DNA of 30,350 nt from a virus. Below are positions 24,490 to 30,332 of this stretch, one piece after another (positions within the stretch are counted from its first letter, which is position 1; every line of letters starts with the position of its first letter). The notes beneath the pieces are model-generated. The model was not told the DNA's origin and searched no databases. It was given only the letters and a program-made list of their open reading frames with translations. The DNA is taken from IMG/VR virus record IMGVR_UViG_3300020207_001125, positions 1 through 30,350 of that record; one strand, 5' to 3'. The translations under genes and the position numbers were made by a program.

Positions 24490-26223
24490 TTATATACCGG
24501 CTAAACTTCTAATACTGTCTAATTCTGTGTTATCTTGTTCTACAGGCTCTTCTTCCCTATAGCCCATTACTTCTGCAACACGATTATTAATACGTTCGAT
24601 AAACTGCTTTGCAGGATCAATAAACTTCTCACCATATTGCTTTTCTACCATAGTTAGCACAGCAGTTTCGCCTTTTGGAAACTGTCCTGTTGTGTAATCA
24701 AAATATGAAAGAATAAACTCGCCTAATGGTGTTTTGTCATCTTCTTGTTCGATTTTAATCTTTTCGTCGCCTGGACCGTCTACTTCATCACCTTTTTCAG
24801 CGCCATTCATTTTAGCCTTACGTACTGCGTGTGCATATGCATTGCCTTCGTCTGCGTCTGCTTCTTTTTCTGAGAAGTTACCTAGTAACTCTTCAATTTC
24901 ATTTTCAATTTGTGACTCGTAGTTTGTAAATCCACCTGGTGGCAAACCTCTGCTTGCACCATCTGGTCCTGTTCCCATTGAGTAAGGAATTTCAAGAACT
25001 TGACCAACTTGTAATTGCTGTGGATTAGAGATGTTATTCATTTGCATAATATCTTTTACAAATTGCTTTACATCTCCGCCCATATTATTTTGATCATTAA
25101 ATGCTTGTGCAATACTAAAGATAGTCATTCCTGGACGCACTTTAACTGTGTTTGCTGGACCTCTTATGTTATCAAGATTTCCTGTACCCCTAACATCTCT
25201 ATCATTATCATCTGGTGCTTCTGTTTCACCTAGTAAATCGTCTGGACCTAGTTCTTGTGGAGCAGTTGCTTCACTTACTAATTTATAGATATAAGGAAAT
25301 ACATCTGCTAGTTCTTCATTAAACTGTTTGATTGTTAGCTCGTCAATCCAATTTTCTTTTACATCTGCAGGTACTTCTTCAAGTGTTGGCGCTTCAAATG
25401 ATTCAAATGCTTCTTTATAGTATGATGGCTTTTGTAGTGATTCTACAGTCTTTTTAACTGTAGCGATACGTTCTTTAACAACATCCATATAGCCTGATAA
25501 ACTTTCTGCCATTACAGCTGAACGTCCCATATATGTTTTAAACTTGCGTAGTTTGGCAAGTTCTTCACTTAGACTTGTAATATGTTTACCAAAATCATCA
25601 AATGGTTTGCCGCCTTCACTTACGTGTTGTGCCATTGCTCTTGCACCGCTTAGGTGTTTGTAAGGATACATAAATCTTTCACCGTCAGCACTTTCAACAT
25701 AGATCTTACCAATCTTTTGTGTTCGTCCGGTTGCACTTTCTTGATTAATACTTTCTGTATGTTTAATCATTATACGTGCTTCGCCAACTTTTTGATAGCT
25801 AACACGACTAGTGCCGTATAGTTTTGATTCTGTCATTTGTTCGTCCTCAATGCGGTTCTGAGCTAAAAATTTATAATCTCTTTTATTTAAATTATTTTTT
25901 GTTATGTTTCTTGTATCAAAATTTAGCAATCTTTTTTTACTAAATTGACGCAATTCTCTTAGAAAATTGTACCAGTTATCCCTAGTCATTTGGTCTTCGT
26001 TAGCAACAAAGTCATTGGTGTACATAACAGCAATAGACTCTTCGTCTAGTGTAATGCTAACCTTTCCTAACACACGGTCTGCTTCTTTGTATTCAAAATC
26101 AAAGAAACGTGCATCTGAAGGTACGTTAGTTACATTACCTTCGGCATCACCGATTGTAACGCTTGGAAAGCGTCCACGTATTTTATTAAAAAGGTCTTCT
26201 GATATATTTTCCAAGTTTTTCAT
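24490..26223 (-). CDS. Virion structural protein with LysM domain
   Basis: From the ATG at 26221-26223 (MKNLENISEDLFNKIRGRFP) the protein is 577 residues. An ATG five codons upstream (26238) is possible, but the chosen one matches the start recalled for relatives and lies five bases after a late-type octamer. Residues about 1-250 form a domain shared with marine T4-like phages (DARFFDFEY, NWYNFLRELRQFSKKRLLNFDTR, KLYGTSRVSYQKVG). About residues 360-415 are a LysM-like module (TVKVRPGMTIFSIAQAF to LQVGQVLEIPYSMG), which often binds peptidoglycan. The C-terminus is acidic. The place directly after gp17 fits a neck, tail or capsid role, not resolved here. Confidence 0.8.
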   Translation of the reverse strand: MKNLENISEDLFNKIRGRFPSVTIGDAEGNVTNVPSDARFFDFEYKEADRVLGKVSITLDEESIAVMYTNDFVANEDQMTRDNWYNFLRELRQFSKKRLLNFDTRNITKNNLNKRDYKFLAQNRIEDEQMTESKLYGTSRVSYQKVGEARIMIKHTESINQESATGRTQKIGKIYVESADGERFMYPYKHLSGARAMAQHVSEGGKPFDDFGKHITSLSEELAKLRKFKTYMGRSAVMAESLSGYMDVVKERIATVKKTVESLQKPSYYKEAFESFEAPTLEEVPADVKENWIDELTIKQFNEELADVFPYIYKLVSEATAPQELGPDDLLGETEAPDDNDRDVRGTGNLDNIRGPANTVKVRPGMTIFSIAQAFNDQNNMGGDVKQFVKDIMQMNNISNPQQLQVGQVLEIPYSMGTGPDGASRGLPPGGFTNYESQIENEIEELLGNFSEKEADADEGNAYAHAVRKAKMNGAEKGDEVDGPGDEKIKIEQEDDKTPLGEFILSYFDYTTGQFPKGETAVLTMVEKQYGEKFIDPAKQFIERINNRVAEVMGYREEEPVEQDNTELDSIRSLAGI

Positions 26224-26228
26224 ATTAG

Positions 26229-26236
26229 TATTTATC
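26229..26236 (-). promoter_or_regulatory. Late-type promoter octamer for the LysM virion gene
   Basis: Minus strand GATAAATA, one base from consensus, is followed by five bases and the ATG at 26221-26223, without a ribosome binding site between. It overlaps the stop codon of gp17. Confidence 0.5.
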
Positions 26237-27818
26237 AATAGTTACTGCTAATGAAGATCGGCATTGGTGGGTCATAATCTTCATAATCTTCTGCCTGTGT
26301 AAATGTATTATACACTCTAGGATCCCAGTCTTTGAGAACATCCATCATTCTTATAGCAAGTAATGTTGCACTTACTAAATCGTCTGTCATGCCTACTTTT
26401 GCTTGGTAACTTGATCCTGTTGCAACATAGCCTTTTAGTTCTGATATAAACGGCTTGCTACGCACAGTCATTTTGTCGTTTTCGACCATTGTTTTTAAAC
26501 GACTGCATGCTGTAATTTTTGTACTATGTGTAGTATTAAATCCTTTACGGAACTTGCGCACATGTCCTTTGCGAATAGGTTCAGACACAAATAGTCCTGG
26601 TATATTCTCTTCCCCAAAATCGTTTATAACGATTAGTGCAGCTTCTCCGATACCGTTGTTTTCTACACTCCAGTATATGCCTTGTGGATTTTTAGTTTCT
26701 TGTTCTATATACTTGCAAATATCTGATAGTACTCTAATTTGTCCTGGAATAGCAGTTTGATTGTGTTGCCACTCTGCAACCTGCTCATAACTTGGCAATT
26801 CAAATACTTGTATAGCAGCATAGTCACCGCCTGTGCCCATACTAGGATCAAGTGCTACAGCATAAGTGTATTGACTTGTTGGCTTTTTATACCAACGTGT
26901 TTGACCCATATTCAATATAGGATTATCACCTTCCATTGCTGCTAGTTTAATAGAATTAATTAGAGTTTCGTCAAATACTAAAAATTCGCAGCCATATTCT
27001 CGACGGAATTTTTCTTCACCAATGCGGCCTATTTCAGCATCACGCCATTCTTCGTCACGATCTGGATGTTCTTCCCAATTAGCACGGAAACTATGAAAGC
27101 CGTTAATACCTACTTCGCTTTCGTTGCCATATTCATCAAACTTTTGTTCTGCTTGTTTCCAAATAGTAGCAAAAGTATCTTCGTCTGAGTTAGGTGTGCT
27201 TGTAATAATAGCACGACCACCTGTTGCTAGTGTAGGTGATATTGAAGTCCAAAACTCTTCAGCAATGTTAGGTTGCACAAACGCAAACTCGTCACAGTAT
27301 AGTAGCGAGATACTCATACCACGTCCTGTGTTGCCTGTTGTTGTTTGACTTACAATCCTACTGCCATTCTCAAACTCAATACTACCTTTGTTGTAACTAG
27401 TAACACCTGCTCTAATATGGTCTGGACAAGTTTCATACACATATCGTATACGTGCCATAATCTCTTGCGCACCTGTATATTTGTGTGCAGCAATAAGAAT
27501 AGTTTGGTCTGGATTAAACATTGCATACCAAGCAAGATAGATAGCCGCACAAGTAGTTTTACCAGTCTGGCGTGGCATCATGTTAATGTTAAAGCGATAG
27601 CTGTGATAGCTATGCATTAGTCTTAACTGATACTCAAAAGGAGCAAACAGCAACTTACCTTTTACAGGATGCTGTATATATGCAAAATGTTCTGCAAAGT
27701 ATAGATATCCTTTATCAGGATCCATGCACTTTGCAATATCCTCAATTTGAGAATTAGTATAGGTTTCTTTTTGATTGGCTTTTTTAGTTAATACGCCGTC
27801 TAAACTTTTACTACTCAT
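26235..27818 (-). CDS. 17: Terminase large subunit, T4 gp17-like
   Basis: A 527-residue DNA packaging motor. Walker A is PRQTGKTT (82-89), Walker B LLYCDE (172-177) with catalytic E177, and the coupling motif is TSTPNS (207-212). The nuclease domain starts at YAVALDPSMGTGGDYAAIQVF, with the metal aspartate D324. T4 gp17 is 610 residues; the deficit is mostly at the N-terminus. The small subunit gp16 lies about 1.4 kb upstream, separated by two virion-type genes, an unusual split. A terminator and a late-type octamer (GTTAAATA, five bases before the ATG) lie directly before it, so it is probably expressed independently. Confidence 0.96.
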   Translation of the reverse strand: MSSKSLDGVLTKKANQKETYTNSQIEDIAKCMDPDKGYLYFAEHFAYIQHPVKGKLLFAPFEYQLRLMHSYHSYRFNINMMPRQTGKTTCAAIYLAWYAMFNPDQTILIAAHKYTGAQEIMARIRYVYETCPDHIRAGVTSYNKGSIEFENGSRIVSQTTTGNTGRGMSISLLYCDEFAFVQPNIAEEFWTSISPTLATGGRAIITSTPNSDEDTFATIWKQAEQKFDEYGNESEVGINGFHSFRANWEEHPDRDEEWRDAEIGRIGEEKFRREYGCEFLVFDETLINSIKLAAMEGDNPILNMGQTRWYKKPTSQYTYAVALDPSMGTGGDYAAIQVFELPSYEQVAEWQHNQTAIPGQIRVLSDICKYIEQETKNPQGIYWSVENNGIGEAALIVINDFGEENIPGLFVSEPIRKGHVRKFRKGFNTTHSTKITACSRLKTMVENDKMTVRSKPFISELKGYVATGSSYQAKVGMTDDLVSATLLAIRMMDVLKDWDPRVYNTFTQAEDYEDYDPPMPIFISSNY

Positions 27819-27832: not shown

Positions 27833-27859
27833 AAAAAAATAGGCACCTAAGTGCCTATT
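27833..27859 (-). terminator. Intrinsic terminator before gp17
   Basis: On the minus strand a nine-base stem AATAGGCAC with GTGCCTATT around the loop TTAG is followed by a run of T residues (seven in all with the stem end). It ends the transcript of the virion genes upstream and separates it from the gp17 promoter. Confidence 0.85.
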
Positions 27860-27883: not shown

Positions 27884-28008
27884 TTATTTTTTTCTGCAAG
27901 ATCCTTTTTCGCCACGTTTTTTACCAGGTACTCTTTCGTAACCGTCCCAGCATTTATCATACATGCTGCTGTTACCGTGACGTTCACCTTCAGCGGTTTT
28001 TACATCTT
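27884..28008 (-). CDS. Cys-rich C-terminal extension in the -1 frame, or separate small gene
   Basis: The -1 frame directly after the slippery site encodes 40 residues, DVKTAEGERHGNSSMYDKCW and then DGYERVPGKKRGEKGSCRKK, to a TAA at 27884-27886. The CWDGY...VPG...GSC pattern is recalled as the end of small or C-terminally tagged proteins in marine T4-like phages. No ATG, GTG or TTG start with a ribosome binding site serves this frame; the only ATG (27962-27964) would give 26 residues and lacks one. It is best explained as an extension of the upstream protein by frameshifting, or by a one-base error in the A8 run. Confidence 0.55.
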
Positions 28009-28611
28009 TTTTTTCGACATCTTTTCTTCTAATGCCTTGCGCAAGCCTGCTTTTAATGAATCTGCAAGTGCTTCCATTGCAGGATCTTTTGCACGGATTG
28101 CTTTAGGATCTTTTGGTCTATGTAAGTCGTCTCCAACTGTAAGAACATCATCTTCGCTACCATACTCTTCGTCAGGTGCGTTGTCCCATTCTTCTTTTTC
28201 CATATCCATTTCAGGCTCATCATCTTTTTCGCCTGCTGCCATAATGGCTCTCATAGTATCCATGTCCATTTCTTGATCACTGCTTGGCATTTCAATATTA
28301 TGAGAAGCTGAATCGATATGTGCGTCATGTGCCATCGGCATATCTACATGCTGTTCTATACCAGCTGCTTTTTGCATTAATGATATTAGATCAGCAACAT
28401 TATCTTTACCTGATGCAGTAACGCTAACAGTTACAGGCTGTCCTTGTTGTGGCATTTGTGTTGGCATTTCCATTGGCATGTCACCACACTCGTCAACTGC
28501 CTGGATTGATTCTAAAATTGCTTTCATGCTTCCGACTTCTGCGGCTGCTGCTGGCTTGTTACCTTTTTCAGCTTCATCAAAGTTTTTTAGAATGTCTAGC
28601 ATACTGCTCAT
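28000..28611 (-). CDS. Virion-associated-type acidic, Met-rich protein (zero-frame product)
   Basis: A 203-residue protein starting MSSMLDILKNFDEAEKG, then a Met/Pro-rich stretch (DMPMEMPTQMPQQGQ), VTVSVTASGKDNVADLISLMQKAAG, and an acidic centre containing EEWDNAPDEEYGSEDDV. The layout matches a protein between the terminase genes of marine T4-like phages that is listed as structural, as I recall. The end (EEKMSKKKM) is short and basic and holds A AAA AAG just before the stop; a -1 shift would add 40 residues for a total of 242. GGGAG precedes the ATG. No enzyme motif. Confidence 0.75.
   Translation of the reverse strand: MSSMLDILKNFDEAEKGNKPAAAAEVGSMKAILESIQAVDECGDMPMEMPTQMPQQGQPVTVSVTASGKDNVADLISLMQKAAGIEQHVDMPMAHDAHIDSASHNIEMPSSDQEMDMDTMRAIMAAGEKDDEPEMDMEKEEWDNAPDEEYGSEDDVLTVGDDLHRPKDPKAIRAKDPAMEALADSLKAGLRKALEEKMSKKKM
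28006..28012 (-). other. Candidate -1 ribosomal frameshift site A AAA AAG
   Basis: In zero frame the codons are AAA AAG ATG TAA, and the heptamer A AAA AAG is the same as in E. coli dnaX, the best -1 slippery site known in bacteria. The stop is two codons later. Shifting leads into the open -1 frame with the CWDGY tail. A weak purine-rich GAAGAAAAG lies 12-20 bases upstream and could serve as an internal Shine-Dalgarno stimulator. Confidence 0.5.
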
Positions 28612-28613
28612 AA

Positions 28614-29171
28614 TTAACTCCCTATAACGCTAGTAGCGTTTTCTTCGTTTGTAATATCGCTGCTTTCGCCAGGTGTAATTCCTTCTACAGGATCAATTTC
28701 TCTTTCCTTACGTGCAACTTCTAGTTCTTTTAATAAGTCCATTACTCTGTTGCCGCCTGCATCTTTTTGAGCACTTTCGCCGCCCATGTCTTCTGTGTTT
28801 AACATAGACTCATATGGCTCTTCGTTTTTAGGCTGCTGTTGTAGTTCTAATGGTTCACCTGGTACTCTAACAACAATATGTGCTGCTGGAATTTTACAAC
28901 TAGCAGCAATGTAATTTTCTAATACTTCTCTAGTTGTAGGATAGTTTACGTCAACTTCCCAGGTATGTACTTCCATGTTCTTTAGTGTAGGGAAATCCAA
29001 TGGTGATTCTTGTATTGGTGTTTTCTTACCTGCTGAACAGCTCTTTAGACTAAATCTTTCTAAACAAGTTTTCATTTGAGCTTCACAACCTTCTGGTAGC
29101 TCTCCTGCAACCTTGATTAAAAAGCTATAAACTTTTTTTGATTCTGTTAAAATATCGCTAAATGATCTCAT
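28614..29171 (-). CDS. Conserved-type virion-associated protein, 185 residues
   Basis: The N-terminal 110 residues (MRSFSDILTESKKVYSFLIKVAGELPEGCEAQMKTCLERF to TWEVDVNYPTTREVLENYIAA) form a domain with the beta-alpha-beta look of ferredoxin-like folds. They recall a structural protein that lies beside the preceding gene in marine T4-like phages. The C-terminal part is charged and flexible (LLKELEVARKEREIDPVEG). Cysteines at about 29, 35 and 45 have no visible metal motif. AGGA precedes the ATG. Function unknown, virion role inferred from gene order between the terminase subunits. Confidence 0.7.
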   Translation of the reverse strand: MRSFSDILTESKKVYSFLIKVAGELPEGCEAQMKTCLERFSLKSCSAGKKTPIQESPLDFPTLKNMEVHTWEVDVNYPTTREVLENYIAASCKIPAAHIVVRVPGEPLELQQQPKNEEPYESMLNTEDMGGESAQKDAGGNRVMDLLKELEVARKEREIDPVEGITPGESSDITNEENATSVIGS

Positions 29172-29191: not shown

Positions 29192-29692
29192 TTATTTATC
29201 CTTATCAAGACCTTTTAGACGCTCTAAGAGACTGTTGCGATCAGTAACTACGTAACCTTCTCCACTAATTAATCCGTCGTCTACACCGCTATTTTCTTTG
29301 TCCATTTTTTCTTTTTTGAGTTGCAGTTCAATCATTTTTAATTTTTTATCTAATTTAGCAGTTTTTGCATCTAAGCCAGTCTTGAGCATATTACCTGCAA
29401 CTTCAAATACTCTGCCACTATAACGACTTTCAACATTCATTCCTAATGTCATTAGATCTTCGTATGCGTTTAAAGCACGGTCTGCAATGTCTTCTAATTC
29501 TTCATCTGCTTTATCACCAAGCCCTTTTACATGCGGTAACGCTGCTGAAATTTTATCAAATTCAGCCATTGTATTAAACGTTTCTTGACGTTCTACATCA
29601 TGCTTCTTTTGATCTTTTTCTTGTGACTCAGCTTTTTCTATAATTTCTTTTGAATCAGGTAAGTCTAATAATTCTTCTAATTTTTTAGTCAT
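29192..29692 (-). CDS. 16: Terminase small subunit, T4 gp16-like
   Basis: A 166-residue protein, largely helical and charged, with a central coiled coil. The middle (ADEELEDIADRALNAYEDLMTLGMNVESRYSGRVFEVAGNMLKTGLDAKTAKLDKKLKMIELQLKKEK) matches the phage gp16 pattern in which the long helical hairpin forms the ring that regulates gp17. The length fits T4 gp16 (164). It is preceded by an exact late box. The gap to gp17 of about 1.4 kb with two virion-type genes between is noteworthy, because in T4 the two terminase genes adjoin. Confidence 0.88.
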   Translation of the reverse strand: MTKKLEELLDLPDSKEIIEKAESQEKDQKKHDVERQETFNTMAEFDKISAALPHVKGLGDKADEELEDIADRALNAYEDLMTLGMNVESRYSGRVFEVAGNMLKTGLDAKTAKLDKKLKMIELQLKKEKMDKENSGVDDGLISGEGYVVTDRNSLLERLKGLDKDK

Positions 29693-29705: not shown

Positions 29706-30332
29706 TTATGTAGTAATATTTATATCTTTAGAATAACCTAGTAATTTAAAATCATCTTCGTATATATTGTATACTATCTTTTCACAATGTTTATTATAGT
29801 ATCGTCTATATGTACTTGGGCCTGTTTTGTTTAAATGATATAAGTCTTCTGTTGTTCCTAAACATTCTTTAATAAAACTGTTTAATTTATCCAATTCTTC
29901 AAATCTAAATAATATATCAACCGGAACATATGGATGTTGTGGCCGGCCTAAAGGAACATGAGGTAATTGGTTACAAAATTCTCTAAATGACATTGGACCA
30001 TATTGATTTTTCCAGTTGTGGTACCAGTCAAGATTTGAAACAGTATTAAAGAACGGGTCTGATTGTTTTGCTAATTTTCTAATATCACTTTCGTATAGAT
30101 ATCTATATAAACTTACTACACGCGAATAGGGATTTCTTGAAATAGCAAATGTTGTACCTAAGTCTTTGCCTAGTGATCTTATTTCTTCAACTGTTGCATG
30201 AGAATCATCATGTAAGGTATAGTATTCTTTTGCATGTTTGAATATATATGCGCTGACACTTTTTCCTGCGGTTTTTGGAATGTGGATAAAAGTATATTTC
30301 TCATTGTTTTTTCCTATAAATGTTATATTCAT
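29706..30332 (-). CDS. Sulfotransferase (PAPS-dependent), copy 2
   Basis: A 208-residue protein with the PAPS loop FIHIPKTAGKS (15-25) and the 3'-phosphate motif SRNPYSRVVS (65-74), as in carbohydrate sulfotransferases of the sulfotransferase-2 group. A third common feature, the RFEELDKLNSFIKECLG segment (about 143-159), also fits. It differs clearly from copy 1 (IPKTAGKS against IPKTGGTS), so the two may sulfate different acceptors. The ATG has AAAGG about 9 bases upstream. It lies directly before gp16, among virion genes, which suggests expression late in infection and possible action on virions. Confidence 0.85.
   Translation of the reverse strand: MNITFIGKNNEKYTFIHIPKTAGKSVSAYIFKHAKEYYTLHDDSHATVEEIRSLGKDLGTTFAISRNPYSRVVSLYRYLYESDIRKLAKQSDPFFNTVSNLDWYHNWKNQYGPMSFREFCNQLPHVPLGRPQHPYVPVDILFRFEELDKLNSFIKECLGTTEDLYHLNKTGPSTYRRYYNKHCEKIVYNIYEDDFKLLGYSKDINITT
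29717..29724 (-). promoter_or_regulatory. Late promoter (exact T4 consensus) upstream of gp16
   Basis: Minus strand TATAAATA. The expected start lies about 18 bases before the gp16 ATG at 29690-29692, giving a short leader, in contrast to the boxes that sit 4-5 bases from an ATG. Confidence 0.65.

Follow-up and report, generated by a model that had tools for sequence, protein, structure and literature searches.

A maintained slippery A-run may control an exchangeable C-terminal module in a terminase-flanking phage protein

The window analysed here is a stretch of 30,350 nucleotides from a marine-type phage (positions 1 to 30,350 of the IMG/VR record IMGVR_UViG_3300020207_001125). For a gene lying between its terminase genes we lean, if only slightly, towards the reading that a maintained slippery site controls an optional, exchangeable C-terminal module, the short form being the default in the window.

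According to this reading, the module is an optional part of a single cistron and would lie behind a slippery A-run that has been maintained. The zero frame of the window stops one codon past the heptamer A_AAA_AAG and would give a short form of 203 residues, while a minority of ribosomes slipping by -1 on the heptamer would enter the CWDGY tail and make a long form of 242 residues; the same long form would result if RNA polymerase added one A in the A8 run. In most relatives, owing to an extra G or another in-frame junction, the zero frame would encode the long form, and a short form would come from slippage. Both forms would be reachable in all of these phages, with one nucleotide setting the default. 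We infer that slippage is frequent enough to be useful and that the virion employs both products.

Organisation of the terminase locus

The initial annotation had proposed a programmed -1 frameshift joining forms of 203 and 242 residues of a virion-type protein, and its site, coordinates, frame relation and product sizes proved correct when all of them were re-derived on the minus strand. The gene does sit between the terminase genes, with the TerS-like gene and a virion gene on one side and TerL on the other. The features of the locus are as follows.

29192..29692, minus strand: terminase small subunit-like gene (TerS-like; phrog_445, E 4.7e-4; phrog_16202, E 4e-13)
28614..29171, minus strand: virion structural protein, upstream neighbour (phrog_14802, E 1.5e-6)
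28000..28611, minus strand: zero-frame open reading frame, short form, 203 aa; homologs in IMG/VR, nothing above chance in Pfam and PHROG
28007..28014, minus strand: A8 run
28006..28012, minus strand: in-frame slippery heptamer A_AAA_AAG, kept in ten lineages
28000..28002, minus strand: zero-frame stop TAA, one sense codon (ATG, 28005-28003) past the heptamer
27884..28006, minus strand: -1 frame tail, a mobile CWDGY module that is in frame in relatives, running from GAT (28006-28004) through 40 open codons (DVKTAEGERHGNSSMYDKCWDGYERVPGKKRGEKGSCRKK) to the stop TAA (27886-27884)
27838..27859, minus strand: intrinsic-terminator-like hairpin, just 3' of the tail stop and ahead of TerL
26235..27818, minus strand: terminase large subunit (TerL), downstream neighbour (Pfam Terminase_6N/6C)

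The 203-codon open reading frame (28611-28000) has an SD-like AGGGAG 5' of its ATG, and its 3' end reads TCG AAA AAA AAG ATG TAA, which gives the C-terminus ...EEKMSKKKM and a stop. The conceptual -1 fusion is 242 aa long. Pfam and PHROG searches with the 203-aa protein and with the tail returned no family above chance, and the label "virion-type" derives from the gene neighbourhood. In the phage collection, the 203-aa part had no relative and the tail gave weak matches in cyanophages only, and the search of genome contigs returned no match. For CWDG, a weak PDB hit to fucose-binding lectins (E 0.026) was attributed to chance. The AlphaFold model of a fused relative was poor overall (pLDDT 52), with the tail forming a small two-strand element (pLDDT 73-79).

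Two further genes flank this region. A sulfotransferase-family gene (29706-30332, minus strand; Pfam PF03567, E 1e-5) adjoins the TerS-like gene, and its region is also covered in the contigs L001/L042. Directly 3' of TerL lies the gene of a 582-aa protein (24490-26238, minus strand) that has a LysM domain (PF01476, E 6e-8) and resembles the virion structural family phrog_13484 (E 3e-16).

As had been stated at the outset, the tail frame has no good start of its own: its only ATG is codon 15 and is not preceded by an SD at the usual distance. This ATG, together with free-standing short CWKGY open reading frames that have their own ATG in L154, L166 and L167, speaks for a small gene of its own that would start within the -1 frame. 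However, a tail encoded separately with its own start, which the initial annotation had named as contrary to a frameshift, is absent from every relative at this locus. With neither an SD nor a separate-gene relative at the locus, an independent tail start was rejected, and we regard a separate tail gene as extremely improbable.

Frame relation of the tail among relatives

Relatives were drawn from IMG/VR, and the class to which the site belongs (...MSKKK-DV) consists of six contigs including the window; looser DNA patterns brought no member beyond these six. The tail is in frame in three of them (L002/L028, L003/L035 and L048) and displaced by one base in the other three (the window, L001/L042 and L037). 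Fused copies read TCN AAA AAA AAG GAT GTA and shifted copies TCN AAA AAA AAG ATG TA(A/G), so that the difference is one G past the A-run. Nine A residues had been anticipated as the mark of a fused gene; the relatives instead differ by a G of the GG pair (A8-9GG to A8-9G). The alignment of the contigs L001 and L002 covers 2,554 bases at 99.57% identity and has a single gap, which is this G, and over the 6.9 kb compared between the window and L002 the same G is the sole uncompensated indel.

Relatives with the tail in frame include L002 (99% identical), L003 (about 73-77%), and L004, L005 and L006-L009 (about 50-60%), and these proteins (L002-L009) span 239-246 residues. All more distant relatives carry the tail in frame, and the out-of-frame relation occurs in none outside the six-contig class. 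The initial annotation had asked for the same site and frame relation in related phages: the site recurs in ten lineages and the shift in L001 and the divergent L037, but most relatives are fused. A simple fused gene, listed beforehand as evidence against a frameshift, is indeed what L002, L003, L048 and all the more distant relatives have, while the window itself is shifted. As the relatives encode the tail in frame, the -1 frame is a true coding module.

We consider it quite improbable that the shift is a sequencing or assembly error, with the phage really carrying A8GG and encoding an ordinary 242-residue in-frame fusion. The position adjoins a homopolymer, the sole A/T run of at least 8 within 30 kb (about 5.7 expected from base composition), and singletons of such a type are usually errors or indels (PMC3711429). 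A case that is probably an edge error was seen in L172 (positions 1-100), 1 of five L078-type contigs, in which the CWKGY tail has lost one base (GTRKRVA vs GTKKKGGK) at the extreme edge of the stored locus. However, the shift is common to three contigs, one of them divergent, and each of them shows one frame switch relative to the relatives' proteins, at this site only, which is not what random errors would look like; general assembly noise was rejected as unlikely on this ground. Moreover, a G and not an A would have to go missing each time, and no contig in which other bases follow the same A9 run is shifted there.

The comparison of the window with L001 showed 4 nonsynonymous and 6 synonymous codon changes in the tail, and the window tail stays coding. 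The private changes of the L037 tail are 6 nonsynonymous and 2 synonymous, a ratio that could fit relaxed constraint; some of its variants (NSK, PGTKRGEKGSC) are also found in intact in-frame modules elsewhere, e.g., in L022 and L026. A burst of differences is present in TerL at positions 27000-27200 of the window (about 26 and 18 per 100 nt), against both L001 and L002, and it suggests recombination.

Conservation of the slippery run

Ten lineages keep the KKK codons as AAA AAA AAG; this is so for every lineage, fused or shifted, whose gene at this locus ends in a CWDGY tail, and for the more distant CWKGY version (L078/L161). Every relative at this locus with a CWDGY tail or an L078-type CWKGY tail has the A8-9G run, which is A8 in the window and L048 and A9 in the other lineages. 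A census of KKK codons over 80 terminase loci and the window, with 96 distinct contexts outside the site, gave AAA AAA AAG in only 1 context, whereas codon use would predict 14.5%, and AAA AAA AAA in none, with 37% predicted; these phages avoid such A-runs in general. An intragenic A9 occurs within 615 kb only at this site. Of the 23 conserved lysine columns in neighbouring genes of these lineages (at least 8 lineages per column), 19 switch codon, the remaining four have AAA throughout, and an all-AAG column is absent. On this basis a fixed AAA, AAA, AAG has a chance of very roughly 0.001-0.0025, a rough estimate since neighbouring codons, and cassettes, may have a common history. About 60 family members that end in different tails lack an in-frame A_AAA_AAG close to their 3' end.

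Because AAA AAA AAG is fixed in ten lineages though otherwise almost never used for KKK, it is likely that the slippery site is maintained and that selection keeps a slip-prone sequence. The A-run belongs to the SKKK linker of this gene; a slippery site borne by the module was rejected, as CWDGY modules in other genes lack such an A8G run.

For the window, L001 and L037, the predicted zero-frame product ends ...KKKM and a stop, and the -1 frame is the tail. In the fused relatives, the zero frame runs into the tail and the -1 product would end KKKE-stop (L004, L005 and L029), KKKD-stop (L006/L026) or KKKGCK(S/N)(R/S)-stop (L002, L003 and L048).

A8 runs were also observed in L065, L089, L111, L114, L116 and L132, at a TESKKTY/EAKKTY motif close to the start of the adjacent virion gene, the counterpart of 28614-29171 in the window.

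Exchange of the C-terminal module

The terminase locus yielded 90-odd relatives of the 203-aa protein, whose C-terminus has been repeatedly swapped and in some lacks a recognisable tail. The C-terminal types include CWDGY, CWKGY, CPECG..KLMACSSCGCS, GSKPKKGEVPPQFKK, GRGRGKKK and SRGKKSRG, among others. Numerous unrelated phage proteins also contain the CWDGY module: some as their C-terminus, relatives of the gene 3' of TerL internally, and small proteins close to their N-terminus.

Across the wider family the tail is clearly dispensable, and a silent deletion is a serious rival to maintained slippage. It supposes that the fused gene is ancestral, that a genuine one-base deletion in an indel-prone A-run switches the tail off, that tail-off phages circulate (as a polymorphism or in a phase-variation-like manner) and that any slippage product is incidental. 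We regard this as a real possibility, if a doubtful one. It accords with the fused state of all more distant relatives, with the near-identity of L001 and L002 (99.6%) in spite of their different frames, with the free swapping or loss of C-terminal modules at the locus and with the predominance of nonsynonymous private changes in the L037 tail. On the other hand, the lost base is a G and not an A in 3 of 3 cases, and slippage of the A-run would need an A10G intermediate, of which none was seen; all three shifted tails are free of stops and further indels, and every copy, whether fused or shifted, retains the slippery codons.

The exchange of modules was also evident elsewhere. In L064-L143, the gene upstream of TerL has a hypervariable C-terminus in which at least six recurring short modules (CWDGY, CWKGY, CPECG/CSSCGCS, GSKPKKGEVPPQF, GRGRGKKK and SRGKKSRG) are exchanged while TerL is 85-95% identical. 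The CWDGYE[RK]VPG module (L012-L063) is mobile over unrelated phage proteins and is found inside relatives of the window open reading frame 24490-26238 as well, including one in L021 that has the same AEGERHGN..MYD version. At unrelated loci, a gene ending GGC AAA AAA AAG overlaps a small CWKGY open reading frame in the -1 frame (L162/L163) or the +1 frame (L158/L165); these small frames are probably separate genes with GTG starts.

Search for stimulatory elements

The heptamer A_AAA_AAG (28012-28006) conforms to the X_XXY_YYZ pattern of -1 frameshift sites in the zero frame, and it is followed by ATG TAA and by the open, coding 40-codon tail in the -1 frame. No Shine-Dalgarno element was found 5' of the site in any of the ten lineages. 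Downstream folding is modest (z -2.3 for 107 nt in the window, -0.8 in L037 and -0.8 to -1.6 in relatives), and a consensus stem near the site showed almost no covariation, so that a stimulatory RNA stem is doubtful. The proposed programmed -1 frameshift is plausible for the window gene: the slippery run is kept in all lineages despite the avoidance of A-runs, but neither an SD stimulator nor a covarying stem accompanies it.

Bacterial transcription slippage is quoted for runs of about 9 or more A or T, and the A8 of the window is one short of 9. As A8 is at the low end for slippage of RNA polymerase, ribosomal -1 slippage on A_AAA_AAG seems the likelier mechanism in the window, with RNA-polymerase slippage as a candidate.

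Discussion

The arrangement resembles several known systems. The heptamer A_AAA_AAG is that of dnaX and, of those compared in E. coli, shifts most readily (PMC5009743). As in bacterial dnaX (E. coli gamma/tau), one gene with this site would give short and long C-terminal forms. The -1 product of E. coli dnaX terminates a codon later, the layout is reversed in some bacteria, and one nucleotide can reverse the roles (PMC5009743). The relatives with KKKE-stop or KKKD-stop would follow the E. coli layout, while in the window the roles would be reversed, with a zero-frame stop almost directly past the site, the short form as the default and the long one reached via -1. Unlike E. coli dnaX, which has stimulators and about 50% shifting, no stimulators were found here, and the proteins are unrelated.

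Some phages encode their Ig-like modules in frame, and others need a shift to express them (PMC5009743). The present tail is comparable to the Ig-like C-terminal domains of T3, A2 and A118/PSA in being a promiscuous C-terminal module that is in frame or out of frame depending on the phage. However, the modules here are Cys/Lys-rich CWDGY peptides of 30-40 residues with no Ig fold (the window tail has 40 residues, no Pfam match and two short predicted strands), and fused and shifted copies differ by one base at a kept site, not by the place where the module landed.

Poly(A) slippage of RNA polymerase yields two forms of one protein in tssM (A11), both of them required (PMC4256274). The rescue of split genes in Citrobacter tssM, Buchnera/Blochmannia and Thermus dnaX is similar in that an A-run lies ahead of an early stop and one extra A restores the full frame. 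The tssM run is A11, in contrast to A8 in the window and A9 in most relatives. As in slipped-strand phase variation, a one-base length change beside a homopolymer toggles the C-terminal part in close relatives, but the changing base is a G past the run and not an A, and it is known here from the comparison of contigs.

A further reading, which we think rather unlikely, is that the single base past A8-9G toggles this virion-type protein between mostly tailed and mostly tailless states while slippage keeps some of the other form, making a heritable ratio switch for an exchangeable tail module.

These phages exchange the C-terminal modules of this terminase-flanking protein extensively, and gene callers would list near-identical phages as having a protein of either 203 aa or 242 aa and miss that a single gene lies behind both. 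The recoding considered here is of a known kind, and the contrast between L001 and L002 is an unusually clean natural one of one base. If slippage is real, these two contigs would be a natural before-and-after pair, one base apart at the site, for the gain or loss of a frameshift-dependent optional module. Reversed dnaX layouts suggest that such role switches have taken place, and a polymorphic virus pair would allow a direct test.
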